DNA from: Pocillopora verrucosa
Taxonomy: Eukaryota > Cnidaria > Anthozoa > Scleractinia > Pocilloporidae
Assembly: GCF_036669915.1 (NCBI RefSeq)
Contig: NC_089323.1
Coordinates: 12,158,328 to 12,222,327, forward strand
DNA: 64,000 bases
Direction of reading: 5' to 3'
A model generated the notes under the pieces. That model did not search any database. It saw only the letters and a list, made by a program, of their open reading frames with translations, and had not been told where the DNA came from. Shown here piece by piece: positions 18,879-60,495 of this stretch. Both the position numbers and the translations under genes were made by a program. How positions within the stretch are numbered: position 1 is the stretch's first letter; every line of letters starts with the position of its first letter.

Positions 18879-19637
18879 ATGGCCTCAAAGAAACTTTTAT
18901 GCTTTCTTCTCGTCCATATCTTTGCCTTGGGAAGTGCTACCTACTGTAGCGATTGTTCCCTCAGTGAGTCCTGTTGTTCAGATAAAGTCTGTAGACAGAG
19001 ATGTTTCCACTGTTCGGACGACTACCAGTGTGGAACGAAAGAACAATGCTGTGATAACAAATGCATCAGTAGTTTCTCAAGTTGTTCCTGTTCGCACGAC
19101 TTCCAATGTGACACTGGCGAGCAATGCTGTAATAGCAAATGCATCAGTAGTTCGTTTTCTTGTTCCTGCACGTATGACTACCATTGTCACATTGGAGAGG
19201 TTTGTTGTGGGGGAGTTTGTTCCTCACACTGTGGTTGGAGCGGTGGAGCTATTGCAGGCGCCATTATCGGCACGGTTATCTTCTTCGCCATCATCATTTC
19301 CATCGTATCCTGCTTCTGCTGCGCTTGTTGCCCGTACTACCGCTATCGTACACCCGATAATGTGGTCGTCACCGACCAACAACCACGACAAGAAATAGTC
19401 GCAACTCACACCCACGAGACGGCGCTACGAGTAGATCTTCCTCCGTTTATGTACTCCGAACAGCCTCCTCCAGCTGGTTACAACCCGCCTCCTCAAGGCT
19501 TTAATGAGCCTCCTCCGCCTTACTCGAGCTATCCACCGCCACCAAACCAATATCCTCCACCGCCGGGACAAGCTCAAGCGGCGCCGATACCGGCTGCAAT
19601 AAACTCTGGACAACCGAACAAGTTCTACGAAAAGTAA
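18879..19637 (+). CDS. Cys-rich single-pass membrane protein, 4 modules (gene 1)
   Basis: An intact intronless 252-residue ORF. Residues 1-21 form a signal peptide (cleavage likely after GSAT). Residues 22-123 hold four cysteine modules of the pattern C-x2-D-x2-C-x5-CC-x3-C. The first is shortened (YCSDCSLSESCC), and the last ends in the family signature ending CGGVCSSHCGW. The helix is at about 124-146 (AIAGAIIGTVIFFAIIISIV), followed by a CFCCACC cluster and YYRYR that look like a palmitoylation/stop-transfer site. The tail (about 152-252) is rich in Pro and Tyr, with EPPPPYSSYP giving a PPxY WW-ligand motif. The pattern resembles half of a WAP core and the overall plan is Shisa/WBP1-like, but homology to either is unproven. 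AATAAA lies at 19,663. It has the fewest modules of the intact copies. Function unknown; plasma-membrane receptor or adaptor is inferred. Confidence 0.88.
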   Translation: MASKKLLCFLLVHIFALGSATYCSDCSLSESCCSDKVCRQRCFHCSDDYQCGTKEQCCDNKCISSFSSCSCSHDFQCDTGEQCCNSKCISSSFSCSCTYDYHCHIGEVCCGGVCSSHCGWSGGAIAGAIIGTVIFFAIIISIVSCFCCACCPYYRYRTPDNVVVTDQQPRQEIVATHTHETALRVDLPPFMYSEQPPPAGYNPPPQGFNEPPPPYSSYPPPPNQYPPPPGQAQAAPIPAAINSGQPNKFYEK

Positions 19638-19662
19638 CCACCCAACAGAACTGTTTCGGTGA

Positions 19663-19668
19663 AATAAA
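19663..19668 (+). promoter_or_regulatory. Polyadenylation signal of gene 1
   Basis: AATAAA lies 26 bp after the stop codon. It is conserved at 32,644, 36,278, 46,548 and 60,546 in sister copies. In the 26.6 kb copy the same site reads AATGAA. Confidence 0.6.
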
Positions 19669-19895
19669 TATCTTTCGGTTTAATTTCCACTTACATAAAC
19701 GTAAACGTAGTCAAGTTACTGAATGTTATGTTAGAATTTTTTTTTAAGGGATAGTTTCAACATTTTAAGGAGTACATAAGTATAGGATGACCTCTACGCT
19801 GTACGTATGCAAATTTAATCTTCCATTTTGCTTTCGTCACACAAAGAAAAACAAAAAGTAGACATAGTTTCCTTGTGGAGAGGATTTTTGTTAGA

Positions 19896-21180
19896 GAAAG
19901 GTGAGTCGGGCCATTTGCATCGTTTTTCCAGATTGAATATTGTATTCTTAGAAATGTGGTTCACTTAACTGCCATATTAAACCGATGTGACTGTATTTGA
20001 TCCAGTCTATGCTTCCATCGATAGTTTTCAATCTATTTCCGCCTATGAAATTTTCAAGATGGCGAATGTCGATCGTGTTGTATAACAGTCAATCTCGGTA
20101 ATAGAATATCGCAGCTTAAATTTTTTTGAATTGGTCAGGTTGTTGTTGCAATATCTGAGCTGCTACCTTTGTAAAGTATTACTTTTAGCTGATCGCATCT
20201 TCAGCAGATCCTTCGACAACATATGTTATGTCGATGTCGAGCAGTATTCAGCTTTGTGTGTTGTAGCAATGTTTTTTTAATAATAAATTGCTGTTAATCA
20301 GCTGCCGTGTGTAAGGTTCAGTTTGATATGCAGGTGACTGGTTCGCAAGCGAATTTTACTTCGGATATTCCGAACTTTTTCTTTGTGCTTGTAAATTTAT
20401 TGAGAAGCTTGTGTTTGGGCGATTTGTTTTCATCAAATCTGACGAGATCTGTCGCGACCAACCAGGTGTAAAACATATGCATAGTGCTACATCTTTGCTT
20501 TCAGTTTGAGTTTTGTCGGAGAAAGGTGAGTCGGGCCATTCGCATCACTTTCCCAGATTGAATATTGTATTCTGAGAAATGTAATTGCCATATTGAACCA
20601 ATCTGACTGTATTTAACCCAGTCTATGCTTCCATCGACAGTTCATAATCTATTTCCCCCTATGACATTTTCAAAATGGCAAATGTCGATCGTGTCGTATA
20701 ACAGTCAATCTCAGGCTATTGTTGCAATATTTGAGCTGCTACCTTTGTATAGTATTCTACTTTTTGCTCATCGAATCTTCAGCAGGTCTTCCGACCGACA
20801 GCATATGCTATGTCGATGTTGAGCATTATTTAGCTTTGCGTGTTGTAGCAATGTTTTTTGAATAATAAATTGTTGTTAATCAGCTGCCGTGTGTAAGGTT
20901 CAGTTTGATATGCAGGTGACCGGTTCGCAAGTGAGTTTTACTTCGGATATTCAGAAAATTTTCTTTGTGCTCGTAAACGTGACAGAAATTTTATCTGAAC
21001 GATTTATTGAGAAGTTGGTGTTTGGGCGATTTACTTTCATCAAAACTAACGAGATCTGTCGAGACCAACCAGGTGTAAAACATATGCATAGTGCTACATT
21101 TTTGATTGCAGTGCTAAACCTAATCATGCATTTGTCGCGGAAGCTTTTCTACGATGAGACCTGATGAAGGAGACATTAAT
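19896..21180 (+). repeat. 620-bp tandem duplication of the 3' module
   Basis: 'GAGAAAGGTGAGTCGGGCCA' occurs at about 19,896 and again at about 20,518, and all of the following 600 bp is repeated. This gives two copies of the conserved module (20,320-20,515 truncated; 20,885-21,180 full) after gene 1. The full copy is open for 91 residues (20,889-21,164: MQVTGSQVSFTSDIQKIFFV...). Translation is uncertain; see findings. Confidence 0.85.
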
Positions 21181-21539
21181 TAGCTAAAAGAAACCGATTA
21201 AATCCCGATGTTGTCCTGCCATATTTAGTCTAAAAGGACCTTATATGTGGCGGACATCTTCATCATATTGGCAGATGCAGACACTATTTGAAATTAAAAT
21301 CCAAGTTGGGCGATGTGGGACCCAAACCACGTGGTAGAAGCAGATTGTTTTGACTAAGTTAGGTTGGCAGTGAAGAAAGAAGTCTTGGCAATTGCAAGTT
21401 CGTTCGTATCAGAGAAGTAAAATGGAAGGAAAACTGTGATGTTTTCAAACCATAGCCATGAGGCTCACGTGATGTAATTACCATAATCTCAATGGAGCTG
21501 GATGTGTTGACGTTGATTTAACAAATACAAAAGCCTTGA

Positions 21540-21985
21540 ACATGCTCTGTTCTGTTTCAAAGTACGCAGGAAGCGGCTAGATCGCGAAAGAAGCGTAAGG
21601 AGAAACACGAGACGTAGTCGACTTGTCGTATTACGTGCCATTGAATCAGAAACGTCAAAGTCTTGTGATTTTACGAGACCTCGTGGTTGAAAAAAAAAAT
21701 AAATGATTGAGTTGTAAAATACAGTACTTAACTTTGTGGTGGAAGCATTTTGCGCGATAATTCTTTTTGGTCCTTCGAGCCGGATAATACTAACCGGTGG
21801 ATAAGTCGTGGTTTTTAGCGATTATATTGTGGTTTTTGCGAATTTCTGTGGGAATAGAAGATGAATTGAGCGATTGGGGCGATGGACGAGATCCACTACC
21901 AGTTGGACTGGAAAACGTGCCGAAGGTAAGTCAACTGGAAATTTCAGTCCAAACTTTCTTGAAAAATGAAAGAAGATCACAATTC
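21540..21985 (+). mobile_element. BEL/Pao LTR-leader fragment
   Basis: Matches 16,270-16,640: 'CATGCTCTGTTCTGTTTCAA', 'GATTTTACGAGACCTCGTGG', 'GAGCCGGATAATACTAACCG', then the gag start region with 'GGGGCGATGGACGAGATCCA'. It stops after about 120 bp of leader/gag, so it is a truncated copy. Confidence 0.65.
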
Positions 21986-22033
21986 AGCTGAAAGGTTTAG
22001 GAGCTTGGGTCGCCTGTGCGCCAGTGAAATTTT

Positions 22034-22895
22034 ATTTTGCGAAACGAAACGAAACAAAATCAGGCGAAACTAAAAGAATAATGAAGTATATTATCCAAAA
22101 TGTAAAGATAACTTTTACAAGGATTTTGTGGTAAACGCTAGTCGTTAAGGAGGATTTTGAAGTAAACGTTAGTCTTTAAGGGGGATTTTAATTTATTTAA
22201 TATATTTAACAAAATCGTCCATTTTCACCCTCCGGTGACCATGTGACATTTTCCATGTCACGAAAATGAATTGAAATATTACACACTAGTAAAGTACCAA
22301 AGCTGTTGTGTGACACGAGAATGGCTTCATCGTTACCGCTCAGTGATTATAATCATTCGTAAAATAGTAATTGACTTAAAATTACTACTCTGCGAAATTA
22401 ATTTTATATGGATAGTGAAATAGGAGGTGACCAGGATCTATGGGAATATACTATAATTTAAAGTTGAAACGTATTTTTGGGACCCGAAAAGAAAGTCATT
22501 ATTGTAGGGTGAGGATAGTCTATTTCTTAAAATAGTGTCTCTCCTAAAATTACTATTTTTCGAAATATATTTTAATACGGTTTAAGAAATAAGAGGAGGC
22601 CAAAATGTTTGGTTCTGAACTAACTTGTAATGTTAAATGCATATCTGTGACATGAAAGAGGTCACATTGTCACCGCAGGAAAAAATAGTCGATTTCGCAA
22701 AATAGTAACTCTTCCTGAATTACTATTCAGCGAAATGACTAAAAATCCTTCTTATCAATTGACGATTACTCCAAAACCTTTTTGGAGGTTATCTTTACCC
22801 TATTAGAAAATACATCTGCGAAATTCCTTTAGTTTCGTTATATCTCGCCTGGTTTCGTTTCGTTTCGTTTCATTGTTCGTTTCGTTTCGCAGAGT
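22034..22895. mobile_element. Foldback element copy 2 with (GAAAC)n termini
   Basis: Terminal inverted repeats: left 22,034-22,075 (TTTTGCGAAACGAAACGAAA... AGGCGAAACTAAAA), right 22,828-22,895 (TTTAGTTTCG... TTTCGTTTCGCAGAGTAG). The interior carries small hairpins such as TTCGTAAAATAGTAA...TTACTACTCTGCGAA. There is no coding capacity, so a non-autonomous foldback or MITE-like element is likely. Confidence 0.75.
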
Positions 22896-23257
22896 AGTAT
22901 CAGCCATAACCTTTCACGCTAGAAAAAAATATCATCAAGTGACATAATATTGCATAGTTTATAGTATCGTCACAGAATACGATTAGTAGTGTACGATTAG
23001 GGTTTTCGTAGACGTTCCTTCTCTTCCGTTTTACATTGGGGGGGGGAGATGGTATGGCTACACGTAGGCTACGGTGCATCTTATCGATCGCATAAGGAAG
23101 CTTCTTCAAAAGTCGAGCCGAGGATAAAAAAACACAAAATACTAATTTTGCATCGCTCGGTGCGGCCAGTTTGTTGCTCCGTAGGCCAGTTCGTTTTCCC
23201 TGTACTAGTGTGTAATACCGTGACATCTCACGACCTTCTTTAGTAAAATGTTTAGTA

Positions 23258-23416
23258 AAATGGACTTTCTCCTCGTCCCCCTTCCCTCCCCCCCCCCCCA
23301 TCACCGTCAATGCCATATATGATAATTTGGAAACCAGCCAACCGCGTCCAATTTAGTCTAATTTATCAAATTATTATCTCACATCGAACAGACGCCTTTG
23401 AAATTGTGAAAGGACA
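23258..23416 (+). promoter_or_regulatory. Upstream region of broken gene 2 (A-type)
   Basis: Same block order as 18,715-18,878: CT/C-rich tract, GCCATATATGATAATTTGG, AAACCAGCCAACCGCGTC, TTGAAATTGTGAAAGGACA, ATGG. It remains well conserved although the gene is dead. Confidence 0.5.
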
Positions 23417-23935
23417 ATGGCCTCAAAGAAACTTTTATGCTTTCTTTTCGTCTATTTCTTTGACTTGGGAAGTGCTACCTACTGTAACGACGACAGCGAT
23501 TGTTCCCTTAGTGAGTCCTGTTGTTCACATAAAGTCTGTAGACAGACATGTTACAACTGTTCGTACGACTACCAATGTGGCAGAAATGCTGCAATAGCAA
23601 ATGCATCAGTAGTTCGTCTTCTTGTTACTGTACGTACGACTCCGATTGTGGCATTAGAGAGGATTGTTGTGGGGGAGTCTGTTATTCATCATTCTGTGGT
23701 TGGAGCAGTGGAGCTCAACTCACAGACACATGACGACGCAACAAGTACATGCTCCTCCGACGGTGAACTACAATCCAGCTGGTTACAACCTGCCTCCTAA
23801 AGGCTTTAATCAGGCACCTCCACCTTACCCGAGCTATCCACCGCCACCAAACTAATATCCTCCACCGCTGGGACAAGCTTAAGCGGCGCCGATGCCGGCT
23901 GCAATAAACGCTGGACAGCCGAGCAAGTTCTAATA
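23417..23935 (+). pseudogene. Cys-rich family pseudogene (gene 2)
   Basis: Starts like gene 1 (MASKKLLCFLFVYFFDLGSA, first module intact). A net 7-bp loss in module 2 (TGTGG|CAGAAATGCTG) shifts the frame. The Cys pattern resumes in another frame (CTYDSDCGIREDCCGGVCYS). The membrane helix and cysteine cluster are then deleted: GGTTGGAGCAGTGGAGCT joins CAACTCACAGACACATG. The tail resumes (MTTQQVHAPPTVNYNPAGYN, NQAPPPYPSYPPPPN) but CAA has become TAA at both the NQY and QAQ positions. It cannot make a membrane-anchored product. Confidence 0.9.
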
Positions 23936-24179
23936 AAAGTAACCACCCAACAGAACTGTTCCCGTGAAATACATATGTTTCGGTTTAATTACATAAACAT
24001 AAACGTAGTCAAGTTACTGAATGCTGAATGTTATGTTAGTATTTTTTAGGGATAGTTTCAACATTTTAAGGAGTACATGAAGTATAGAATGACCTGTACG
24101 CTGTATATATACAAATTTAATCTTCCATTTTGCTTTCGTCACACAAAGAAAAACAAAAAGTAGACATAGTTTCCTTGTG

Positions 24180-25240: not shown

Positions 25241-25244
25241 CAAA

Positions 25245-25470: not shown

Positions 25471-25488
25471 ATATATATATATATAAAA

Positions 25489-25644: not shown

Positions 25645-25647
25645 TTA

Positions 25648-26596: not shown

Positions 26597-27766
26597 ATGG
26601 CCTCTAAGGAGCTTTTATGCTTTCTTTTCGTCTGTTTCTTTGCCGTGAGAAGTGCTACCTGCTGTACCTACGACAGTGATTGTTCCTACCTTCAGTCCTG
26701 TTGTACAGATAAAGTCTGCAGACAGCGTTGTTCTGTCTGTTCGTACGACTACCAATGTGGATCGAACGAGCAGTGCTGTAAAAGCCAATGTAAAAGTAGT
26801 TCGTCTTCTTGTTCCTGTTCGTACGACTCCCAATGTGGATCGAGCAAGAAATGCTGTAATGGCAAATGCATCAGTAGTTTTTCTTCTTGTTCCTGTTCGT
26901 ACGACTTCCAATGTGGATCGAGTAAGAAATGCTGTAAAAGCAAATGCATCAGTAGTTCGTCTTCTTGTTCCTGTTCGTACGACTACCAATGTGGATCGAG
27001 CAAGAAATGCTGTAATGGCAAATGCATCAGTAGTTTTTCTTCTTGTTCCTGTTCGTACGACTTCCAATGTGGATCGGGCAAGAAATGCTGTAATAGCAAA
27101 TGCATCAGTAGTTCGTCCTCTTGTTCCTGTTCGTACGACTACCAATGTGACAGTGGCGAGCAATGCTGTAATAGCAAATGCATCAGTAGTTGGTCCTCTT
27201 GTTCCTGTTCGTACGACTATCAATGTGACAGTGGGGAGCAGTGCTGTAAAAGCAAATGCATTACTAAATCGTTTTCTTGTAACTGTTCGTCCGACGACCA
27301 GTGTGACATTGGAGAGGATTGTTGTGGAGGAGTTTGTTCCTCATACTGTGGTTGGAGTGGTGGAACTATTGCAGGGGCTGTTATCGGCACGATTATTTTC
27401 TTTGCCATCATCATTTCTATCGTATCCTGCTGCTGCTGTGCTTGTTGCCCGTACTACCGCTATCGTACACCCAGCACTGTGGTCCTCAATTGCCAACAGC
27501 CACAACAACAAATAGTCTCAACCCACATGATGACGACGCAACAAGCATATGCTCCTCCGCCGTTGAACTACAACCAGCCTCCCCTACCATGTTACAACCA
27601 GCCTCCTCCAGATGGATACGATCAGCCTCTTCCAGGTTTCAATCAGGCTCCTCCGCCTTACTCAGGCTGTTTACCACCACCAAACCAATATCCTCCACCG
27701 CTGGAACAAGCTAAAGCGGCGCCGAGGCCAACAGCAGTAAACACCGAACAACCGAACGAGATCTAA
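26597..27766 (+). CDS. Cys-rich single-pass membrane protein, 9 modules (gene 3)
   Basis: An intact intronless 389-residue ORF, the longest of the family here. Signal peptide 1-21. Nine Cys modules span about 22-256, most exactly 26 residues (78 bp). Internal modules are almost identical (CSYDYQCGSSKKCCNGKCIS type) and alternate between Y, F and S at the position before QC, which suggests recent tandem duplication of one and two units. The ninth is the conserved CSSDDQCDIGEDCCGGVCSS ending in YCGW. The helix is at about 257-277, followed by SCCCCACCPYYRYR. The tail, about 285-389, repeats QPP/GYDQP elements and carries NQAPPPYSG (PPxY). The module matches the C..D..C.....CC...C half of WAP domains. 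The former AATAAA is AATGAA. Other long open frames over the same DNA are by-products of the 78-bp period. Function not known; extracellular binding with cytoplasmic WW partners is inferred. Confidence 0.9.
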   Translation: MASKELLCFLFVCFFAVRSATCCTYDSDCSYLQSCCTDKVCRQRCSVCSYDYQCGSNEQCCKSQCKSSSSSCSCSYDSQCGSSKKCCNGKCISSFSSCSCSYDFQCGSSKKCCKSKCISSSSSCSCSYDYQCGSSKKCCNGKCISSFSSCSCSYDFQCGSGKKCCNSKCISSSSSCSCSYDYQCDSGEQCCNSKCISSWSSCSCSYDYQCDSGEQCCKSKCITKSFSCNCSSDDQCDIGEDCCGGVCSSYCGWSGGTIAGAVIGTIIFFAIIISIVSCCCCACCPYYRYRTPSTVVLNCQQPQQQIVSTHMMTTQQAYAPPPLNYNQPPLPCYNQPPPDGYDQPLPGFNQAPPPYSGCLPPPNQYPPPLEQAKAAPRPTAVNTEQPNEI

Positions 27767-31544: not shown

Positions 31545-31694
31545 TATGGACTTTCTCCTCGTTCCCCTCAACATCCCCTCTCCACCCCCCCCCCCCTTCC
31601 CCAAAATCCCCATCAATGCCACCATATATGATAATTTTGGAAACCAGCCAACCGCGTCACATCGAACAGATGCCTTTGAAATTGTGCTAGGACA
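31545..31694 (+). promoter_or_regulatory. Upstream region of gene 4 (A-type)
   Basis: C-rich tract, 'CATATATGATAATTTTGG', 'AAACCAGCCAACCGCGTC', then a shortened leader (the ATTCATCAAATTATT stretch is missing) and TTGAAATTGTGCTAGGACA before ATGG. Confidence 0.5.
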
Positions 31695-32609
31695 ATGGCC
31701 TCAAAGAAACTTTTATGCTTTCTTATCGACTTTTTTTTTGCCTTGGGAATTGCTACCAGCTGTAACTACGACAGCGATTGTTCCCTCAGTTTGTCCTGTT
31801 GTTCAGATAAAGTCTGTAGACAGAGGTGTTACTGTTCGTACGACTACCAGTGTGGAACTTACGGGCAATGCTGTAATAACAAATGCATCAGTAGTTCGTC
31901 CACTTGTTCCTGTTCTAACGACTACCAGTGTCACATTAGCCAGCAGTGCTGTAATGGCAAATGCATCAGTAGTTCGTTTTCTTGTTCCTGTTCGTACGAC
32001 TACCAATGTCGATCGAGCAAGAAATGCTGTAATAGCAAATGCATCAGTAGTTCGTCTTCTTGTTCCTGTTCATACGACCACCAATGTGACAGTGGCGAGC
32101 AGTGCTGTAATAGCAAATGCATCAGTAAATCGTCTTCTTGTTACTGTACGTACGACTCCGATTGTGACATTGGAGAGGATTGTTGTGGGGGAGTTTGTTC
32201 GGCATCATACTGTGGTTGGAGTGGTGGAGCTATTGCAGGCGCTATTATCAGCACAATTATTTTCTTCGCCATCATCATTTCCATTGTGTCCTGTCTCTGC
32301 TGTGCTTGTTGCCCATACTACCGCTATCGTACACCCCGTACTGCGGTCGTCACCGGCCAACAGCCACAGCAACAAATGGTCTCAACTCACACACACTTGA
32401 CGCCGCAACAAGTACATGCTCCTCCGCCGGTGAACTACAATCAGCCTCCAGCAGCTGGTAACAACCCGCCTCCTCAAGGCTTTAATCAGGCACCTCCACC
32501 TTACCCGAGCTATCCACCGCCACCAAACCAATATCCTCCACAGCCGGGACAAGTTCAAGCGGTGCCGATGCCGGCTGCAATAAACGCTGGACAACCGAAC
32601 ACGTGCTAA
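31695..32609 (+). CDS. Cys-rich single-pass membrane protein, 6 modules (gene 4)
   Basis: An intact intronless 304-residue ORF with ATG in the same ATGGCCTCAAAGAAA context as gene 1. Signal peptide 1-21 (FFFALGIAT). Six Cys modules span about 22-178; the first (CNYDSDCSLSLSCCSDKVCR) is the standard N-terminal type and the last (CTYDSDCDIGEDCCGGVCSA) precedes SYCGWSGG. Membrane helix about 179-200, then SCLCCACCPYYRYR. The tail (about 207-304) has NQAPPPYPSYPPPPNQYPP with a PPxY motif. AATAAA at 32,644-32,649. The flanks match genes 1 and 2 closely (A-type), so gene 4 differs from gene 1 mainly by two extra modules. Role unknown; secretion and membrane anchoring are strongly implied. Confidence 0.9.
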   Translation: MASKKLLCFLIDFFFALGIATSCNYDSDCSLSLSCCSDKVCRQRCYCSYDYQCGTYGQCCNNKCISSSSTCSCSNDYQCHISQQCCNGKCISSSFSCSCSYDYQCRSSKKCCNSKCISSSSSCSCSYDHQCDSGEQCCNSKCISKSSSCYCTYDSDCDIGEDCCGGVCSASYCGWSGGAIAGAIISTIIFFAIIISIVSCLCCACCPYYRYRTPRTAVVTGQQPQQQMVSTHTHLTPQQVHAPPPVNYNQPPAAGNNPPPQGFNQAPPPYPSYPPPPNQYPPQPGQVQAVPMPAAINAGQPNTC

Positions 32610-34330: not shown

Positions 34331-35183
34331 TATTTAGGGCTGGTGGTAACGCCGATTAGTGGTGATAATTTTAGAATTATGCTAGCTGTGTTTGATTTTT
34401 TTCACCGTTCATAAGCTTACAATCTAACTGAGCATGAAAGCAATTCGACTAACGAGGAAATTTAAGCTTATTGTCGGGAAATCGACGACTGGATAAGAAT
34501 CTTGGGATGGCAATCATAACTTTTCTCTAAATTCAATCCAACGCCTAGACTGGTTAATGCAAAATTACTCTCTACCACTCATATAGGAGTCTATGTCATA
34601 CGTGAATACGGTATATAAATGAGTTGCCATTTGTTTCTATGTTGACTTGCTTCTGGGCGACTTGGCCGGTGAGCGAGGCGCCATCGAAACGTGACCTACG
34701 GAACATTACTTGTGTGACAATTAATCTTCCCGGAAGTTCGTCATTAATTTTCATGAAATTACGGCGGATGCTTGCGGAAATACAGTTGGTTTTACGATCG
34801 ATGTGTCTCCATAGAGTTAGTGCCCTTGTTTACGATGTTTCCATTTATTCTATAGAGAGCTAGAACATGATTTTTATTGTAGAAAAAAAATGAACAAAAA
34901 AAGAATAATAAATACCCTAAAGCGAACTCTTATTCGGTAATAAAGTCACCACTACTTCAATGTCAGGAAACTAACTTTTGTATATTGTAACGTCATGATT
35001 TTCCATTAAACTCAAGGTTTTTAATATTTCACTTTTTAATATGAAATATACCAGATCTTTTTTTTTTAAATTAAGAAAGGGGAGATGCGATCTTAAATTG
35101 TAAACCTAATGTTAAGAAATTTTGGTTTTCAAGGGTGGGTGATTCAAGGTACATGTAAATCAAGGATGATGATTCGGCTTTAG

Positions 35184-36227
35184 CTCGGAAGTGCTACCTA
35201 CTGCAACGACGACAGTGATTTTTCCTACCTTCAGTCCTGTTGTACAGATAAAATCTGTAGACAGCAATGTTCTGTCTGTTCGGACGACTACCAATGTGGA
35301 TCGAACGAGCAGTGCTGTAAACGCCAATGTATCAGACGTTTTTCTTCTTGTTCCTGTTCGTACGACTCCCAATGTGCATCGAGCAAGAAATGCTGTAAAA
35401 GCAAATGCATCAGTAGTTTGTCTTCTTGTTCCTGTTCGTACGACTCCCAATGTGGATCGAGCAAGAAATGCTGTAATGGCAAATGCATTAGTAGTCTTTC
35501 TTCTTGTTCCTGTTCGTACGACTTCCAATGTGGATCGGGCAAGAAATGCTGTAATGGCAAATGCATCAGTAGTTCGTCCTCTTGTTCCTGTTCGTACGAC
35601 TACCAATGTGACAGTGGCGAGCAATGCTGTAATGGCAAATGCATCAGTAGTTGGTCCTCTTGTTCCTGTTCGTACGACTACCAATGTGACAGTGGCGAGC
35701 AGTGCTGTAAAAGCAAATGCATTAGTAAATCGTCTTCTTGCAACTGTTCGTCCGACGACCAGTGTGACATTGGAGAGGATTGTTGTGGAGGAGTTTGTTC
35801 CTCATACTGTGGTTGGAGTGGTGGAACTATTGCAGGGGCTGTTATCGGCACGATTATTTTCTTTGCCATCATGATTTCCATCGTATCCTGCTGCTGCTGT
35901 GCTTGTTGCCCGTACTACCGCTATCGTACACCCGGCACTGTGGTCGTCACAGGCCAACAGCCACAACAACAAATGGTCTCAACCCACATGATGACGACGC
36001 AACAAGCATGTGCTCCTCCGCCGTTGAACTACAACCAGCCTCCCCTACTATGTTACAACCAGCCTCCTCCAGATGGATACGATCAGCCTCTTCCAGGTTT
36101 CAATCAGGCTCCTCCGCCTTACTCAGGCTGTTTACCATCACCAAACCAATATCCTCCACCGCTGGAACAAGCTAAAGCGGCGCCGAGGCCAGCAGCAGTA
36201 AACACCGAACAACCGAACGAGATCTAA
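35184..36227 (+). pseudogene. Cys-rich family gene lacking its start (gene 5)
   Basis: From CTCGGAAGTGCTACC onward the family frame is fully open to the normal stop, with eight Cys modules, helix (TIAGAVIGTIIFFAIMISIV), CCCCACC cluster and PPPY tail. The first 18 or so signal-peptide codons and the promoter are missing. Immediately upstream the in-frame codons are ATG-ATG-ATT-CGG-CTT-TAG, so no start reads in. The third Cys of module 1 is Phe (CNDDSDF). Homology begins exactly after TTTAG, which could act as a 3' splice site, so a spliced product from an upstream exon is formally possible. AATAAA at 36,278. Otherwise it is nearly identical to gene 3, with one module fewer. Confidence 0.8.
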
Positions 36228-38085: not shown

Positions 38086-39019
38086 TAGAAGTCAAATGTT
38101 TAGTGAAATCCGGCGGAATTGAAGCTCGTGAAAGCACAGAATTTTATTTTCACATGACAATTAGAAAACAAACTGTTTAAGGCGCGTGTTTCACATGAAC
38201 AGAAAGATTGCTCTAGATGACCACGCCGTACAACTCTGCTACTGTGACTGATGTAGCCTTCCACTCAAGACATCGGAAAGGATATCAGAGCAAGATCGTA
38301 GTTGTTCACTCGAAGGGCGGCCGATGTAATTTCTTAGGCTTGCTTCGCTGCGGTGACTGGAGACCGCCATGACGAGCTAGCCGCGATGGACCTCAGATGG
38401 TTTTCCTAACTTGGGTTGGCAGTGAAGAAAGAGGTCTCGGCAATTGCAATTTCACTCTTATCAGAGAAGTACAATACAAGGAAAACTGCTATGTTTTACA
38501 ATCATACTCATGAGGTTCGCGTGATGTAATTACCATAATCATAACAGAGCCGGATGTGTCGACGTTGATAAGACGTTGAAAAAGGTCAGAAAGCATGTTG
38601 TAGAAACCAATCCCCCTCCTAGCCCCAGTCCGCGCGGATCATGCATATAACGGTGCAAACGCATGCATAGATTTGAGTCTAATCAGTTGTAATCTTTCAG
38701 TTTGCACTTTCCCCGTCGAGTGGCTGGTGTTTACATTTCGCGCACTTTGCTTGTAAATTTGGCTAAAAAATTTGGGCTTCCATGTTCCCAGTGACATAAT
38801 TCGAATTGGAAATGGTAAATACCGTTCGAAACGCTCTGATTGTTCGGTCCTTGAATCCTGTTGTATAGATAACGTCTCCAAAGAAAATTGTTAAACTTAC
38901 AGTATTTACGGTGACCAATTTACGTTATCAACTCAGTTGATATTACTAAACACCCTGTTATACTCTCCCACCGACACAGCATCACAGTTTCTTTAGAAAC
39001 TTACCCCTTTATTCATTAC
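38086..39019. other. B-unit hinge region
   Basis: Repeats blocks also found at 53,461-54,060 and 62,440-63,080 ('ACATCGGAAAGGATATCA', 'GTCGAGTGGCTGG', 'TTTCGCGCACTTTGC'). An 80-codon minus frame (38,639-38,881) is not conserved. No gene supported. Confidence 0.5.
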
Positions 39020-39188
39020 CGCAACAACTGTTCGTCCCAACTCACAGGCACACGATGATGACGCAGCCGGTACAAGCTCCTCCGTCGCTCCAATGGGTTA
39101 CAATCAGCCTCCTCAGGGTTACAACCAGGCACCACCCACTTATCCGCCACCTTATCCAACTGTGTATCCTTCATCTGAGGTACAATGA
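39020..39188 (+). pseudogene. Relic of a tail exon (PPPY-type)
   Basis: MMTQPVQAPPSL in one frame, then MGYNQPPQGYNQAPPTYPPP and YPTVYPSSEVQ-stop in the next. This resembles the Pro/Tyr tail of the Cys-rich family but has a different C-terminus and different 3' DNA. A one-base frame change separates the halves. The acceptor seen in the sister copy (54,478-54,479) reads TTAC here. Confidence 0.7.
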
Positions 39189-39228
39189 CAAGTCGTTTCG
39201 ATGGCGTCCCGCTCACTAGCCAAGTACT

Positions 39229-44160: not shown

Positions 44161-44172
44161 GAAACTGCTATG

Positions 44173-45414: not shown

Positions 45415-46479
45415 ATGGCCTCCAAGAAATTTTTATGCTTTCTTTTCGTCTGTTCTTTTGCCTTGGGAGGTGCTACCTACTGTACCTTCGGCAGTGATTG
45501 TTCCTACCCTCAGTCCTGTTGTACAGATAAAGTCTGCAGACAGCGTTGTTATGTTTGTTCGTACGACTACCATTGTGGATCGAACGAGCAGTGCTGTACA
45601 AGCAAATGCATCAGTAGTTCGTCTTCTTGTTCAAGTTCCTGTTCGTACGACTACCAATGTGGATTGAGTAAGAAATGCTGTAAAAGCAAATGCATCAGTA
45701 GTTCGTCTTTTTGTTCAAGTTCCTGTTCGTACGACTACCAATGTGGATTGAGTAAGAAATGCTGTAAAAGAAAATGCATTAGTAGTTCGTCCTCTTGTTC
45801 CTGTTCGTACGACTACCAATGTGGATCGAGCAAGAAATGCTGTAATGGCAAATGCATCAGTAGTTCGTCTTCTTGTTCCTGTTCGTACGACTTCCAATGT
45901 GGATTGAGTAAGAAATGCTGTAATGGCAAATGCATCGGTAGTTCGTCATCTTGTTCCTGTTCGCACAACTACCAATGTGACAATGGCGAGCAATGCTGTA
46001 ATAGCAAATGCATTAGTAAATCGTCTTCTTGTAACTGTTCGTCCGACGACCAGTGTGACATTGGAGAGGATTGTTGTGGAGGAGTATGTTCCTCATACTG
46101 TAGTTGGAGTGGTGGAGCTATTGCAGGGGCTGTTATCGGCACGATTATTTTCTTTGCCATCATAACTTCCATTGCATCCTGTTGCTGCTGTGCTTGTTGT
46201 CCTTACTACCGCTACCGTACACGTGGTACTGTGGTCGTCACCGGCCAACAGCGGCAACAACAGATAGTCTCAACCCACATGATGACGACGCAACAAGTAC
46301 ATGCTCTTCCGCCGGTGAACTACAATCAGCCTCCCCTAGCAAGTCACAACCAGCCTCCCCCAGATGGATACGACCAGACTCTTCCGTCTTACTCAAGCTG
46401 TCCACCACCACCAAACCAATATTCTCCACCGCTTAGACAAACTAAAGTGGCGCCTATGCCAGCTGTAGTAGACACCTGA
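45415..46479 (+). CDS. Cys-rich single-pass membrane protein, 8 modules (gene 6)
   Basis: An intronless 354-residue ORF. Signal peptide 1-21 (FALGGAT). Eight Cys modules span about 22-234. Modules 2 and 3 carry a two-residue spacer insertion (84-bp units with CSSSCSYDYQCG), a variant seen only in this copy. Module 7 has SHNYQC instead of SYDYQC, so the conserved Asp is lost. The last module ends SYCSWSGG. Helix about 235-256, then SCCCCACCPYYRYR. In the tail the usual PPPY has become QTLPSYSSCP, so no PPxY is seen in this copy. A TGA also truncates the last 9 or so residues (PAVVDT-stop instead of AVNTEQPNE.). AATAAA at 46,548. Probably expressible, but with altered WW-binding capacity. Confidence 0.85.
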   Translation: MASKKFLCFLFVCSFALGGATYCTFGSDCSYPQSCCTDKVCRQRCYVCSYDYHCGSNEQCCTSKCISSSSSCSSSCSYDYQCGLSKKCCKSKCISSSSFCSSSCSYDYQCGLSKKCCKRKCISSSSSCSCSYDYQCGSSKKCCNGKCISSSSSCSCSYDFQCGLSKKCCNGKCIGSSSSCSCSHNYQCDNGEQCCNSKCISKSSSCNCSSDDQCDIGEDCCGGVCSSYCSWSGGAIAGAVIGTIIFFAIITSIASCCCCACCPYYRYRTRGTVVVTGQQRQQQIVSTHMMTTQQVHALPPVNYNQPPLASHNQPPPDGYDQTLPSYSSCPPPPNQYSPPLRQTKVAPMPAVVDT

Positions 46480-50308: not shown

Positions 50309-50412
50309 ATGGTTCTAACGAACTTTCATGTCTTCTTTTCGTCTGTTTCTTTGCCTTGGGAGGTGCTACCTACTGTAACTACGACAGTGATTGTTTCATT
50401 GGTAAGAACTGT
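50309..50412 (+). pseudogene. Cys-rich family 5' stub (gene 7)
   Basis: ATGG.TTCTAACGAACTTTCATG lacks one base relative to ATGGCTTCTAAGGAACTT, so the frame is lost at once. Signal-peptide and module-1 DNA (TGTAACTACGACAGTGATTG) continue to GTAAGAACTGTT at about 50,412, then unrelated sequence follows. Confidence 0.85.
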
Positions 50413-51246: not shown

Positions 51247-51315
51247 CCAACCGCATCTAATTCATCTAATTATTTCCTCACATCGAACACACGCAATTGA
51301 AATTGTGAGAAGACA

Positions 51316-52197
51316 ATGGCTTCTAAGGAACTTTAATGTCTTCTTTTCGTCTGTTTCTTTGCCTTGGGAGGTACTACCTACTGTAACTACGACAGTGATT
51401 GTTCCATTGATAAGAAATGTTGTGCCTATAATGTTTGCAGACGGCAATGTTCTACCTGTTCGTATGACTACCAATGTAGATCGAACAAACAATGTTGTAT
51501 AATAGCATATGTATCAGTAGTTTCTCTTCTTGTTCCTGTTCGTACGACAACCAATGTGGATGGGGCAAGAAATGCTGTAATAAAAAATGCATTAGTAGTT
51601 CGTCTTCTTGTTCCTGTTCATACGACCACCAATGTGACAGTGGCGAGCAATGCTGTAATAGCAAATGCATCAGTAAATCGTCTTCTTGTTCCTGCACGTA
51701 CGACTACGAATGTGACATTGGAGAGGATTGTTGTGAGGGAGTTTGTTCCTCATACTGTGGTTGGAGCGGTGGAGCTATTGCAGGCGCTTTTATCGGCACG
51801 ATTATCTTCTTGGCCATCATCATTTCCATCGTATCCTGCTGCTGCTGTGCTTGTTGTCCGTCCTACCGCTATCGTACACCCGGTACTGTGGTCGTCACCG
51901 GCCAACCGCAACAACAAATGGTCTCAACCCACATGATGACGACGCAACAAGTACATGCTCCTCCGCCGTTGAACTACAACCCGCCTTCTCCAGATGGATA
52001 CAACCAGCCTCCTCCAACAGGTTACAGCCAGTCTCCTCCAGCTGGTTACCACAAGCATCCTCCAGGTTTCAATCAGGCTCCTCCGCCTCACTCAAGCTGT
52101 CCACCACTAACAAACTAATATGCTCCAGCGCCTGGGATAAGCGAAAGCGGCGCCGATGCCAGCAGCAGTAAACACCGAACAACCGAATGAGATGTAA
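51316..52197 (+). pseudogene. Cys-rich family pseudogene (gene 8)
   Basis: ATGGCTTCTAAGGAACTT is followed by TAA because of a small change in TTTTATGC. Module 1 (CNYDSDCSIDKKCCAYNVCR) is readable in a later frame. A 2-bp gain in module 2 (TGTTGTATAATAGC) shifts again. From 51,492 the frame is open through three or more modules, the helix (GGAIAGAFIGTIIFLAIIIS) and tail, ending at TAA where CAATAT has become TAATAT (about 52,117). It lacks the upstream CT-rich promoter because of the fusion at 51,246. Not functional as is. Confidence 0.9.
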
Positions 52198-54479: not shown

Positions 54480-54665
54480 CCGCAACAACTGTTCGTCCTA
54501 ACGCACACGCATAGGATGATGTCGTCGCCAGTACAAGCTCCTCCGTCGCTTCATGACAAGCAGCCTCTTGTAGGGTACAATCAGCCTCCTCAAGGTTACA
54601 ACCAGGCACCACCCACTTATCTGCCGCCTTATCCACCTCTCTATCCTCCATCTGAGGTACAATGA
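54480..54665 (+). pseudogene. Tail exon of a spliced relative
   Basis: After ATTCATTAG the frame is open to TGA: HRMMSSPVQAPPSLHDKQPL, VGYNQPPQGYNQAPPTYLPP, YPPLYPPSEVQ. It matches the Pro/Tyr tail of the family (TQQVHAPPSVNYNQPP) but ends in SEVQ. The frame is intact here, unlike at 39.0 kb. No upstream Cys or membrane exon is found, so it is an orphan exon or relic. Confidence 0.65.
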
Positions 54666-54904
54666 CAAGTCGTTTCGATGGCGCTCCGCTTACGGGCCAA
54701 GCACTTAGATGTTTGAAGCAAGTCAAAATAGAAATAAACAGCAACTCTTGTTAAGTGACGTATTCATGTATGACATAGACTCCTATAAGCGTGATAGAGA
54801 GTAACCCTGCATTGAACTGTTCCCATGTTGGATTGAATTTAGAAGAAAGTTATGATTGCCATCCCAAGATTCTTATCCAATCATGGATTTCTCGACAATA
54901 AGCT

Positions 54905-55085
54905 TCAATTTCCTCGTCAGTCGATTTGCGTGACAAGTAATCTTTCCGGAAGTTCGTCACTTAATTTCTTCCAACTACGGCGCTTACTTGCGGAAATACT
55001 GTTAGTTTTTCGCTCGATATGTCTCCAAAGAGTTATTGCCTTTGTTTCCGATGTTTCTATTTATTCTAAAGAGAGCTAAAAAATG
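54905..55085 (+). repeat. Conserved post-tail-exon block
   Basis: Same block as 39,430-39,605. Here it is open as SGSSSLNFFQLRRLLAEILL... A partial extra copy lies at about 55,290-55,380. Confidence 0.65.
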
Positions 55086-55739: not shown

Positions 55740-56124
55740 TTAAAAGAAAATAGAAAGGTATCTTTATCGTAGATCAATATTTACGAATGTCTGTATTTTT
55801 CTTAAATGAAGACAGGGTAGACAGATTTACGACGTTTTTAGGTTCTTTGTTCAATGTTTGAGCTTTTGTTTGAATTTGAGCTTTGGTCTGACTTGAAAGG
55901 TACTGAAACATTCCCATAACGTAATTATGTAGGGCAACAAAATTTCTCCTATTCCCCTTCAATTTCCCTTATCGATTCCCTTTCCCCTTCCCTTGCACCT
56001 TTCCCTGCACCCTTCCCACCATCTATGGGAGTTTCCATGGTAAAGTGTCTGGAGAGAATTTGGAAACCAGCCAAGTGATTATTGTCCGACCTCGAGCGGA
56101 CGCCATTGAAATTGTGAAAGGACA
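55740..56124. promoter_or_regulatory. Bidirectional promoter interval, gene 9 unit
   Basis: Lies between the antisense ATG (55,739) and sense ATG (56,125). Contains TTTATCGTAGATCAATATTT, GGTTCTTTGTTCAAT, 'GACTTGAAAGGTACTGAA', the CT-rich tract and the B-type leader blocks. The order is conserved at 59,086-59,451 and 63,331-63,553. Confidence 0.55.
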
Positions 56125-56921
56125 ATGGCCCCTGAGGAGCTTTTATGCTTTTTTTTCGTCTGTTTCTTAGCCTTGGGAAGTGTTACCTGATGTATCTACG
56201 ACGGTGATTGTTCCTACAGTCAGTCCTGTTGTAGAGATAAAGTCTGCAGAAAGCGTTGTTCCCGCTGTTCGTGCGACTGCTAATGTGGATTGAACGAGCG
56301 ATGCTGTAATAGCATATGTATCAGTAGTTTCTCTTCTTGTTCCTGTTCGTTCGCTTCCAGTGTGGATTGGGCAAGAAATGCTGTAAAAGCGAATGCATCA
56401 GTAGTTCGTCTCCTTGTTCCTGCACATACGACTATCAATGTGACAGTGGCGAGTATTGCTGTAATAGCAAATGCATCAGTAGTTCGTCTTCTTGTTCCTG
56501 CACGTACGACTACCAATGTGGATCGAGAAAGAAATGCTGTAAAAGCAAATGCATCAGAAGTTCGTCCTCTTGTTATTGTTCGTCCGACGACTAGTTTGAT
56601 ACTGGAGGGGATTGTTGTGGGGGAGTTTGTTCCTCATACTGTGGTCGGAGCGGCGCAGCTATTGCAGATGCTGTTCTCGGCACGACTATCTTCTTCGCTA
56701 TCATCATTTCCATCGTAACCTGCTGCTGTTGTCCTTGCCCGTACTACTGCCGTCGTACACCCAGTACTGTGGTCGTAACCGGCCAACAGCCACGACAACA
56801 AATCGTCTCAACCGACATGATGACGACGCAACAAATACATGCTCCTCCTTCGGTGAACTACAACCCGCCTCCTTTAAATGGATACGACCAGCCTCCTCCA
56901 GCAGGTTATAACCAACTATAA
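56125..56921 (+). pseudogene. Cys-rich family pseudogene (gene 9)
   Basis: MAPEELLCFFFVCFLALGSV reads normally, then ACC-TGA-TGT stops before module 1. Further stops occur at TGC-TAA-TGT and GAC-GAC-TAG, and a one-base loss (GTTCGTTCGCTTCCAG) shifts the frame within the modules. Cys modules, a diverged helix (AIADAVLGTTIFFAIIISIV type) and part of the tail remain to NQL-stop. The rest of the tail and the first 3' UTR are deleted, joining directly to 'AAGTTAGGGAAAAAGG'. Not functional. Confidence 0.9.
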
Positions 56922-57454
56922 GTTAGGGAAAAAGGATCTCCAATCTTAAATTAACTGCCCCTAATCTTAGCCATGATCTGCACGCTGTATATTTACAAAT
57001 TTGAATATCTATTTCATTGTCCAAAGAAAAACAGGAAGACACAGATATCTCCTGGAGATAGTTGAGTCCGGCCATTTGGATCAATTTTCCAGAATGAGTA
57101 TTGTATTTTTAGGAATGCAGTTTACACTTTAAGTATCACATTAAACCAGTCCATGCAGTTTTCAATCTATTTACGCTTGTGATATGTTCAAGAAATGTTC
57201 AGTGTCGATCGTGTCGTAAAGCGGTCAAATTGATTATCTTCTTAATATAATGTTACTATATTTGAGCTGCCACCTTATTTACAGACGTGAGTAATTATTT
57301 TCTTCTTCAGAGACAGTTATTACTTTTTTTAATTCTACCTTAAGCTGATCGAATCTTTAGTAGATCCTTCCACAGCAAATGCTGTGTTAAGTAGCATTTA
57401 CATTTGTTTGTTGTCACTATTTTGTTGAATAAGAAATTTCCGTTAATCCGCCGC

Positions 57455-57850
57455 CGTGTGTAAGGTTTGGTTTAATATGCAGATGACCGGTTCGCAAGCT
57501 AATTTTACATTGGATATTCTCAACTCTTTCCTTGCGCTTGTAAACGTGACGAAAATTTCATCTGAACGATTTATTGAGAAGTTGGCGTTTTGGGCAATTT
57601 TGCTTTCATTAACACTGACGAGATCTGTCAAAAAGATCGAGAAAAAAACCAGGTAAAAACATTTGTATACGGTTACATCTTTGCTTTCAGTATTAAACCT
57701 GATTATGCATTTGTCGCGAAAGCTCTTCTACGGTGAAACCTGATAAAGGAGACATAAATCAGCCAAAAGAAAGCGGTTAAGTTTCAATTTTTGTCTCGCC
57801 ACATTTAGTCTAAAAGGACCTTGTATTTGGCGGACATCTTCATCATATTG
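57455..57850 (+). repeat. 3' module copy after gene 9
   Basis: 'ATGCAGATGACCGGTTCGCA' and SSERFIEKLAFW encoded. Frameshifted after that. Confidence 0.75.
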
Positions 57851-57904
57851 GCGGATGCAGACACTACACGAGACACTACACGAGAGCTTTGAGCGTCAAG
57901 CAAA

Positions 57905-58205
57905 TCTCCCAAAATTCAAGCTGGAAGAAAGCGAATGTGGCCTTCGTTATCAGATAGAAATGGAATGTTTGAAACATATTATCCATCTGCAAAACTGCAT
58001 ACCAAAATTGGCAAATTCAGTTTCATAAACGTGCACATCCATTCTTTTACCTGTTCCAATGAACATTAGGATTTACTGGCATGCTATTTTAAGGAAAACG
58101 GATATCGAGGGTTCATTAGGTGAATTCTACAAAGATAGTCAAATATCCTGTACACTATGTTTGTTTCGAGGTCTCTCATATCCTCATAAAACTAAATTTT
58201 CCCTA
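57905..58205 (+). repeat. Duplicated block shared with 48.15 kb
   Basis: Sister of 48,150-48,520 with indels. It follows a broken 3' module at 57,880 (CACGAGACACTACACGAGAG). Confidence 0.7.
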
Positions 58206-58929
58206 GTGTTTTAGCAGCCGGAATCCGAAGATGTTCTGACAAACAACCCTGAAGTGAGAATGGTGCAGGGTTTGCCGTTTATTCATCAGCCTGACCGAGT
58301 GACGCCAAAGGTGAGTGACGTGTCAGTATCTGATTGGCGATATCAAACACACGTGAAAAAATATCGTATTTGTTCTCGTGTGTTGTTACGGCTTTTCTCA
58401 GGGATGAAAATCCTTGTATAACGCCGTTGTTTATATGACGAATAGAGAATAGTGCATAGGTGGGTGTAGATATGGAATTTCTCTTCGAGTGTTGAACCCG
58501 ATAGCTCGCGAGTGAGATGTCAAGTTGAACACGAGAAGAGATATTCCATTTCCACAAGCAAACATGTATTCTTTTTTTTATCATATAAACATAATTGCCC
58601 ATTACTGACAAGAAAAGTCAACTTTAGTAATAAGTGAAAATAAAAGGATCGAAAATCTCCGAATAAAAATATCCATGTGCGTTGGCGCACTCAAGATGAA
58701 AACACGTGTTGAATCACTTCAAAAAAACAACAACAATGAGCCTATTTTTCAACAAACGAAATTCTCGGTTCTTGAATTGGGCCTTACCGACAGAAGAAAT
58801 CTTACAGGTACATGGCCTAAATCGGCCTGTGGCAAATCTTCCAGTTGTCGATTTTCGTTCTCAGCCGCTAGACGTTCGGTTTTTCTTTTCGTATTTCGAT
58901 TTCCTTCGCTGTTCACGCCCTTATTGGAA
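58206..58929. other. Dispersed-repeat sequence
   Basis: A minus ORF (58,279-58,611; SSRVQLDISLASYRVQHSKR) and two overlapping plus ORFs have no recognised domain. The 58,480-58,620 stretch has the look of an interspersed repeat end. No gene supported. Confidence 0.35.
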
Positions 58930-59085
58930 CGTGACTATTACTTTGAAAATAAGGTATGTAATAAGTTCCTTTAAACCATCTTGTTCAAACTCCCTCATGA
59001 AGTCTGTGTGATCAGAATAAACGGCTGGGAGAAGATGAATCAAGTTGACATTTTCTGTTGTTGTTTGCTGCTCACAAGCACTTAT
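58930..59085 (-). pseudogene. Antisense partner gene relic, copy 3
   Basis: ISACEQQTTTENVNLIHLLP, then SDHTDFMREFEQDGLKELIT, then YLIFKVIVTFQ-stop. The start codon is ATA instead of ATG. Ends 367 bp from the ATG of gene 10. Confidence 0.65.
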
Positions 59086-59451
59086 TAAAAAGAAATGTAC
59101 AAAAAGGATGTATCTTTATCGGAGATCAATATTTACGAATGACTGCGATTTCTTGAATGACCATGGGGTCGAAAGATTTTTTATGTTTCTTGGTTCTTTG
59201 TTCAATATTTCATTTTAGCTTTGGCCTGACTTGAAAGGTATTAAACCATCCCCGTTACGAGATTATGTATGGTAACAGCATTTTTCTTTTTCCCCTTCAA
59301 CTTCTCATTTTCGATTTTCCTTTCCTTTCCCTTTCACCTTCCCACCATCTATAAGGGTTTCCATGGTAAAGAATCTGGAGAGAATTTGAAACCAGCCAAC
59401 CGCATCTAATTATTATCGTCGAACGGACGCCATTGAAATCGTGAAAGGACA
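59086..59451. promoter_or_regulatory. Bidirectional promoter interval, gene 10
   Basis: Same element order as 55,740-56,124. The CT tract is partly T-rich (TTTTCCTTTCCTTTCCC). 'TTTCCATGGTAAAGAATCTG', 'AAACCAGCCAACCGCATC' and TTGAAATCGTGAAAGGACA precede ATGG. Confidence 0.55.
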
Positions 59452-60495
59452 ATGGCTACTAAGGAACTGTTATGCTTTCTTTTCGTCTGCTTCTCTGCCT
59501 TGGGAAGTGCTACCAACTGTACCCGTCAAAGTGATTGCTCCGGTAAGAACCGGAACTGTTGTCCTGATAAAGTATGTAGACTGCGTTGTAATGGCTGTGG
59601 GCGCAACGACTATTATTGTGGATCGAACGAGAAATGCTGTGGTAACACGTGTGCTAGAAGTTCCGATATTTGTCTCTGTACGCATGAATCCATGTGTGGA
59701 CGGGGTGAGATATGCTGTAAGCACAAATGCACCAGAAGTTTGTCGTCTTGTTCCTGCACGTCCAAAGACGAATGTGGATTGAACGAGGAATGCTGTAACA
59801 GCATCTGTTCGTATTCTTGCCATTCCTGTACGAGCGACAACGAATGTGGATGGGGCAAGAAATGCTGTAATAGCAAATGCATCAGTAGTTCGTCTTCTTG
59901 TCATTCCTGCACGAGCGACTACGAATGTGGATCGAGCAAGAAATGCTGTAATAGTAAATGCATCAGTAGTTCGTCTTCTTGCCATTCCTGTTCGTCCGAC
60001 GAACAGTGTGATAGTGGAGAGGATTGTTGTGGGGGAGTTTGTTCCACAAACTGTGGTTGGAGCGGCTGGTATATTACAGGCGCAGTTATCGGCACGATTA
60101 TCTTCTTCGTCATCATCGTTTCCATCGTATGCTGCTGCTGCTGCGCTTGTTGCCCGTTCTACCGCTATCGTACACCCGGTGCTGCAGTCGTCACAGGCCG
60201 ACAGCCGCACCAACAAATGGCCTCAAACCACATGATGACGATGCAACAAGTACATGCTCCTCCGTCGGTGAACTACAACCAGCCTCCTCCAGAAGGATAC
60301 AACCTGCCTCCTCCAGCAGGTTATAACCAGCCTCCTCCAGCTGGTTGCGATCAGCTTCCTCCAGGTGTCGGTCAAGCTCCTCCGGCCTACTTAAGCTATC
60401 CACCACCAACAAATCAATATCCTCCACCGCCGGAACAAGCTCAACCGGCGCCGATGCCAGTTAAAATAAACGCCAAACAACCGAACGAGATGTAA
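59452..60495 (+). CDS. Cys-rich single-pass membrane protein, 7 modules (gene 10)
   Basis: An intact intronless 347-residue ORF and the most diverged copy. Signal peptide 1-21 (MATKELLCFLFVCFSALGSA). Seven modules: the early ones are unlike any other copy (CGRNDYYCGSNEKCCGNTCA; CTHESMCGRGEICCKHKCTR; CTSKDECGLNEECCNSICSY), while the later ones have the usual CC.SKCISSSSS but with an SCHSC spacer, longer by one Cys-containing step than SCSC. The last is CSSDEQCDSGEDCCGGVCST ending NCGW. Helix YITGAVIGTIIFFVIIVSIV is followed by CCCCCACCPFYRYR. The tail has a tandem YNQPPPAGY-like nonapeptide repeat and GQAPPAYLSY, a PPxY site. AATAAA at 60,546. The single-copy-like modules suggest an older member or different ligand; function unknown. 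Confidence 0.9.
   Translation: MATKELLCFLFVCFSALGSATNCTRQSDCSGKNRNCCPDKVCRLRCNGCGRNDYYCGSNEKCCGNTCARSSDICLCTHESMCGRGEICCKHKCTRSLSSCSCTSKDECGLNEECCNSICSYSCHSCTSDNECGWGKKCCNSKCISSSSSCHSCTSDYECGSSKKCCNSKCISSSSSCHSCSSDEQCDSGEDCCGGVCSTNCGWSGWYITGAVIGTIIFFVIIVSIVCCCCCACCPFYRYRTPGAAVVTGRQPHQQMASNHMMTMQQVHAPPSVNYNQPPPEGYNLPPPAGYNQPPPAGCDQLPPGVGQAPPAYLSYPPPTNQYPPPPEQAQPAPMPVKINAKQPNEM

Follow-up and report, generated by a model that had tools for sequence, protein, structure and literature searches.

The STMC6 class of membrane proteins is said to go back to Pei and Grishin in 2012, whose content is given here second-hand. Several related systems have since been described, and they are cited here from the consulted parts of each paper. 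WBP1L is palmitoylated, binds NEDD4-family ligases via [L/P]PxY motifs and regulates the ubiquitination and level of CXCR4 (PMC6991692). CYYR1 binds WWP1 via PPxY and brings WWP1 to late endosomes (PMC11399591), and Commissureless (Comm) binds Nedd4 (PMC5578492). The ectodomain of the STMC6 class has the cysteine pattern C*C*CC*CC, as quoted in two of these papers (PMC5578492, PMC6991692). Here, we compared these systems with a tandem gene array of the coral Pocillopora verrucosa. The array lies in a stretch of 64,000 nucleotides (C12:12,158,328-12,222,327 of a 353-Mb genome in 52 contigs), which we call the window. Our best reading is that the array encodes single-pass adaptors that combine a PY tail with an ectodomain of half-WAP repeats, in a family evolving by birth and death; they are not demonstrated members of STMC6 or Comm.

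The array had been proposed from the letters of the window alone, and both its existence and its coordinates were confirmed. The original prediction counted ten copies, five of them complete. We found the same five intact genes and, by score thresholds that we set ourselves, 12 family places, and the earlier count was essentially right. All 12 places are on the + strand (starts at 18879, 23417, 26597, 31695, 35184, 39096, 45415, 50314, 51316, 54480, 56125 and 59452). The intact genes are w18 (18879-19637, 252 aa, with a short module array and PPPY), w26 (26597-27766, 389 aa, nine six-Cys modules, PPPY), w31 (31695-32609, 304 aa, six six-Cys modules, PPPY; the reference copy), w45 (45415-46479, 354 aa, eight modules, with LPSY where the others have PPxY) and w59 (59452-60495, 347 aa, seven modules, PPAY). 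Each of them is one exon from ATG to stop, and introns in the 5' untranslated region (UTR) could still occur.

A sixth long open frame, w35 (35184-36227), has a stop immediately upstream, lacks a signal peptide and a start, and has lost one module Cys; its nearest relative is w26. The remaining places are five broken copies or fragments and one lone signal-peptide piece. The broken copies have frame changes, tail stops and a missing transmembrane (TM) segment (23417-23924), a stop within the signal peptide and a frame change (51316-52188), or several stops and frame changes (56125-56915). Two further copies are diverged, one as fragments (38835-39203) and one as a tail fragment (54480-54698), and the lone piece holds a signal peptide and first module (50314-50412). 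Judged by eye, the roughly 30 bases upstream of each ATG (e.g., 31665-31694) show good conservation in 11 of the 13 copies aligned and differ in the two short-type copies. This suggests that the copies have a 5' UTR or promoter in common. Over the module arrays, open stretches of 213-288 codons also occur in other frames and on the opposite strand (26649-27515 on the + strand; 26615-27340 and 35160-35801 on the - strand). They are expected where a stop-free 78-nt unit is repeated and were not taken as genes.

The family continues past both ends of the window. By our thresholds, the whole cluster extends over 12.129-12.255 Mb of C12 (126 kb) and has 26 places on one strand, 13 of them intact (an open frame from ATG through [L/P]PxY) and 13 broken or fragmentary. 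The first place, at 12,128,792, has a frame change, and four short two-module copies form the downstream edge. The comparisons below use a set of 14 copies, which includes w35; the 12 places left out of it are fragments and broken copies. In alignment A2, one row is shortened by the end of the locus. In the tree of these copies the four short ones stand apart (support 100), and w26, w35, w45, w59, c229 and c232 form a group (support 99), with w18, a137, b151 and w31 separated from each other at a support of 57-71 only. The two latter sets are interleaved on the chromosome. The closest pair is w26 and w35; over 2040 aligned bases (summed pieces), their 3' flanks share 96.3% identity. Despite this close kinship, w26 has seven middle modules and the decayed w35 has six. 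Because 5' and 3' flanks were duplicated together with the genes, we rejected the possibility that the copies are retrocopies.

The ectodomain is a string of 26-residue modules, and their 78-nt unit is a tandem repeat of at most 7.3 copies. A regular expression that allowed gaps of 4-7 and 4-8 found 67 six-Cys modules in the 14 copies. The spacing C-x5-C-x5-CC was present in 64 of the 67 modules, in 55 of them followed by x3 and the next Cys, and the commonest complete spacing was C-x5-C-x5-CC-x3-C-x6-C (38/67). The final two cysteines are 3 to 6 residues apart in every module, which gives the order C*C*CC*C*C. By this count, each copy has 2 to 9 modules. The long copies of the window have 3 to 9.

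In a WAP domain, the latter half has the spacing C-x5-C-x5-CC-x3-C, and the modules follow the C-terminal half of the WAP model (PF00095). The best of seven window proteins scored 19.1 bits against this model, with a match to its C-terminal part only, and none of the seven reached the Pfam cut-off of 20.8 bits; the family was therefore not taken as a plain WAP family. The cut-off was passed, again over the C-terminal part, by the neighbouring copy b151 (24.5 bits) and by a relative on contig C8 (C8:9941, 21.0 bits). Judging from spacing and profile matches, the ectodomain unit is built like a WAP domain reduced to its C-terminal half. Structure prediction had been suggested as a means to obtain the disulfide pattern. 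In a model of three modules, for which 20 window rows were used, each module shows a beta hairpin together with a helical turn (predicted local distance difference test, pLDDT, 80; predicted template-modelling score, pTM, 0.47). The Cys order is compatible with an inhibitor cystine knot, and disulfide connectivity is not readable from the model. A profile search against PDB gave no significant match.

All five intact window genes encode a signal peptide, the modules, one TM helix, a Cys cluster and a tail. In w31, the tandem modules occupy 31827-32135 and are followed by the TM helix (residues 177-204, 32223-32306; a low-confidence model and a conserved block), the membrane-proximal cytosolic Cys cluster (residues 200-206, 32292-32312; invariant alignment columns) and the PPPY motif (residues 267-270, 32493-32504). 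The evidence for the TM helix is the model in w31 and hydropathy in the relatives. The topology would be type I single-pass, and the cytosolic Cys cluster may be palmitoylated. Half-WAP-like modules, a single helix, a Cys cluster, a PPxY tail and recent duplication had all been proposed earlier and are borne out. The same holds for the lack of a named family, since a scan of seven window proteins and nine relatives gave no Pfam model that covers the architecture as a whole. No description of this architecture was found in the literature, as judged from listings and the openings of abstracts.

We found [L/P]PxY in all 14 tails of the C12 copies (PPxY in 13, LPSY in w45). Among the Tyr columns of the tail block, only that of this motif is invariant in 14 of 14 copies; the next best column reaches 13. 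A paired YxxL/I of the immunoreceptor tyrosine-based activation motif (ITAM) type was present in none of the 14 C12 tails and none of 15 tails of relatives, and YxxPhi was present in two of the 14. The original prediction spoke of a signalling-type tail; PPxY without an ITAM speaks more for a ubiquitin-ligase or trafficking adaptor than for a signalling receptor of the classical kind. Profile matches to Comm were found in four of seven window proteins (E 0.0057-0.03), and one relative on C14 matched RCR (E 1.3e-4). These matches hint at PY-motif membrane adaptors. The genome has 71 exon-level matches to HECT domains.

Distant relatives were found on three other contigs. A second cluster (C8:9,927,663-9,974,705) has 12 diverged single-exon frames with a signal peptide, a Cys-rich ectodomain and a TM segment; nine of these were found via homology (query included) and three via a motif filter (9927, 9931, 9973). 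Ten of the 12 carry one to three [L/P]PxY motifs, and frame 9955 has few ectodomain cysteines. Three more relatives are located at 6.041-6.055 Mb of C14 and one at 5.333 Mb of C2. C14 also has weaker matches at 20.03 Mb (E 1.1e-4, covering no more than TM and tail) and at 6.030 Mb (E 0.005). Profile-profile comparison joined the C12, C8 and C14 groups (E 6.8e-16, 5.1e-17 and 6.6e-17); these values are inflated by common Cys richness, and the modules, TM and juxtamembrane parts nevertheless align in the same order. Of the nine C8 frames that homology had brought up (counting the query), eight have PPxY, as do all three C14 relatives at 6.04-6.06 Mb; these relatives show little overall identity. 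This recurrence in diverged relatives is stronger evidence than the C12 count. The C8 alignment A4 holds nine of the 12 known frames and omits 9955 (few ectodomain Cys) as well as 9929 and 9973 (no PPxY), so that its invariant PPxY is partly a result of choice. A viral or prokaryotic origin was also considered and set aside, as no relative was found in viral and prokaryote contigs; these collections contain no animals, and the negative has little weight. Beside the C8 cluster, a frame at C8:9,961,627-9,962,593 resembles, by eye, a window frame at 4319-4744 on the - strand; the adjacent C8 frame has a sub-threshold match to Herpes_teg_N (E 5.2e-4) and may belong to a mobile-element peptidase.

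Starting from the observed anatomy, duplication and constraint on cysteines, anchor and PPxY, we propose that the products are type I PPxY adaptors that recruit NEDD4-family ligases to the partner of the ectodomain, acting like WBP1L, CYYR1 and Comm. We give this proposal about an even chance of being right. The array genes would encode type I single-pass surface proteins with the string of 26-residue six-Cys modules outside, and a cytosolic, possibly palmitoylated Cys cluster and a proline-rich tail with the conserved [L/P]PxY inside. The PPxY motif would bind WW domains of NEDD4-family HECT ligases. The ligase would then be brought to a putative ligand or membrane partner to which the half-WAP ectodomain binds, and the partner could be internalised, sorted or turned over, as for WBP1L, CYYR1 and Comm. 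Tandem segmental duplication and the gain and loss of 78-nt modules may vary the binding surface, with the anchor and the tail motif fixed. Both the recruitment of the ligase and the ectodomain partner are what we infer from this anatomy.

Several results weigh against this proposal. The C12 tails are rich in Pro and Tyr, and shuffled tails had PPxY in 5.4 of 14 on average. Because shuffled tails often have the motif and the copies are related to each other, the C12 count is weak evidence when taken alone. The shuffle of the C8 tails covered 11 frames, including the three motif-filter picks and leaving out 9929. Three relatives have no PPxY (C8:9929, C8:9973 and C2:5333, the last being the only one on C2). 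The matches to Comm and RCR were all under the Pfam cut-offs. The full-length model of w31 is poor (pLDDT 53, pTM 0.23), with one long helix at residues 177-204.

Constraint was investigated on 39 middle modules, drawn from ten copies, and their Cys codons were almost completely protected (the proportions of non-synonymous and synonymous differences, pN and pS, were 0.003 and 0.26). Because these codons change synonymously and almost never otherwise, the array is not a chance repeat or a composition artefact. For the non-Cys codons pN/pS was 0.65, and it reached 1.13 in the ten membrane-proximal modules; variability is seen between the second Cys and the CC of the module. The pooled pairwise ratio of non-synonymous to synonymous rates (dN/dS) was 0.43 for the signal peptide and first module, 0.30 for the last module and TM, and 0.56 for the tail. 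The value of the last module and TM, the lowest of the three regions, was 0.25 without the short copies. Single pairs with dN/dS > 1 numbered 5, 0 and 11 of 91, respectively. The original prediction of a variable ectodomain on a constant anchor stands in that the block of last module and anchor is the most constrained and module number varies; diversifying selection is suggestive only.

Codon models, which we coded ourselves, favoured a site class with dN/dS 3.6 in the middle modules (twice the log-likelihood difference, 2dlnL, 13.6; sites 6, 9 and 22). None of 30 null simulations reached the data (largest 13.1); these used a looser optimisation, which gave 21.4 for the real data. For the signal peptide and first module, the concatenated tree gave a 2dlnL of 16.7, a value that none of 40 simulations reached. 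With a tree made from this region itself the value fell to 5.0, and leaving out the short copies lowered it to 2.8, so that positive selection in the first module is not upheld under the tree of the region. The TM and juxtamembrane block gave a 2dlnL of 0. The tail model (dN/dS 1.5, 2dlnL 20.4) conflicts with the pairwise value of 0.56 and was not used as positive selection; we think that codon choice in Pro-rich repeats breaks it. The nearest module sits in the same gene for only seven of the 39 middle modules. Because modules are shared between genes, part of the diversification signal may be caused by recombination. Overall, the codon comparisons suggest that cysteines and anchor are held and loops are free, with diversification hinted at and fragile.

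These results bear directly on the recognition or immune role proposed earlier, in which variable half-WAP ectodomains bind foreign or self ligands, the tail internalises or signals, and copy and module number give diversity. A birth-and-death cluster with half of its 26 places intact and 2 to 9 modules per copy would fit such receptors, as would the favoured site class in the middle modules beside none in the TM and juxtamembrane block. A coral genome has also been reported to have many tandemly amplified innate-immune families (PMC10236652, in the part consulted). However, the first-module signal is tree-dependent, pooled dN/dS is below 1 in all three regions, module exchange between genes can mimic positive selection, and the tails lack an ITAM-type pattern. 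Selection is suggestive for the middle modules only, and we regard the role as unlikely. A related and rather unlikely idea is that of an anthozoan lineage-expanded recognition system, in which half-WAP module number and loops vary between copies and are coupled via PPxY directly to NEDD4-type ubiquitination and endocytosis, instead of ITAM or TIR signalling.

A quite improbable alternative is a membrane-anchored protease inhibitor, or a component of mucus or matrix, in which the tail serves for trafficking only. The two relatives above the WAP cut-off and the half-WAP spacing of 64 of 67 modules agree with it. Nevertheless, the N-terminal half of the WAP domain is missing, and none of the 48 matches listed from a WAP-model search of the genome falls in the C12 cluster. 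That PPxY and the cytosolic Cys cluster are conserved suggests a role inside the cell, and the variable residues between the second Cys and the CC seem unlike one fixed inhibitor loop. Mostly neutral turnover, in which unequal crossing-over makes a small ancestral family like the downstream two-module copies expand and decay and adaptive function is slight, would explain the 13 broken places and the relaxed non-Cys codons (0.65, and 1.13 near the membrane), but it is improbable given the near-total protection of the Cys codons, the dN/dS of 0.25-0.30 in the anchor block and the invariant Tyr of PPxY.

Some further features were observed apart from the array. The window has a 133-bp tandem repeat of 3.2 copies at 15443-15863, several 10-bp arrays of the GGAATTCCTA type at 3838-4175, and an inverted repeat pair (34440-34610 and 54759-54929; 171 nt, 85% complementary), which may be copies of a dispersed element. 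No RNA family reached its gathering score, and DNA folding of two 78-nt units gave nothing unusual (z -1.0). Elsewhere in the genome, GFP-like exons gave 74 matches, all on C1, with two large clusters at 28.36-28.79 Mb and 0.67-0.88 Mb. For the two exons that were compared, the best match among solved structures was amFP486, a sea anemone protein from a genus of the Actiniaria.

Returning to the reading of the array as PY-tailed adaptors, the known systems resemble it in different parts. Pervasive tandem arrays formed by birth and death have been reported for coral genomes (PMC10236652), and the half-WAP/PPxY architecture is not described in the consulted part of that paper. Secreted cysteine-rich repeat proteins (SCREPs) also have tandem disulfide-rich repeats, as far as the consulted part of their description goes (PMC6262176); they are secreted, whereas the array family is membrane-anchored with a conserved cytosolic motif. 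In the WAP four-disulfide core proteins, the latter half of the domain is spaced like the array modules, and two relatives exceed the Pfam cut-off. The array family differs from them in having no first half, six instead of eight Cys per unit, a membrane anchor and a PPxY tail.

The adaptors introduced at the outset are alike in the anchor and tail. Comm and the yeast proteins Rcr1 and Rcr2 are short single-pass proteins whose PY motifs bind Nedd4 or Rsp5, and their weak profile matches to the array family cover the TM and tail. Comm is without extracellular cysteines, according to the consulted part of PMC5578492, and the best match of the family to the Commissureless model (PF15957) was 17.3 bits, compared with a cut-off of 27. 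The STMC6 and Shisa-like proteins (WBP1, WBP1L, VOPP1, CYYR1, Shisa) share with the array family, as far as the consulted sources describe them, a signal peptide, a Cys-rich ectodomain (small in STMC6), one TM segment and a Pro-rich [L/P]PxY tail. No match to their Pfam families was found at E up to 1 in seven window proteins or up to 10 in nine relatives. A Shisa_N search of the genome gave no match, and its controls gave none either. The single TM and the Pro-rich PY tail of STMC6 are present in the array family. Instead of the pattern C*C*CC*CC, found once per protein in STMC6, the family has 2 to 9 repeats of C*C*CC*C*C. A named member of STMC6 or Shisa was rejected on this difference. The family was filed neither as STMC6 nor as Comm, because it does not have C*C*CC*CC and does not reach the Comm cut-off. 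If our reading is true, the intact genes and their testable parts would offer a means to study how a fast-changing anthozoan ectodomain is coupled to protein turnover, and the kind of PY adaptor known from WBP1L, CYYR1 and Comm would come to include one whose ectodomain is built from repeats and which has expanded in tandem in a cnidarian.

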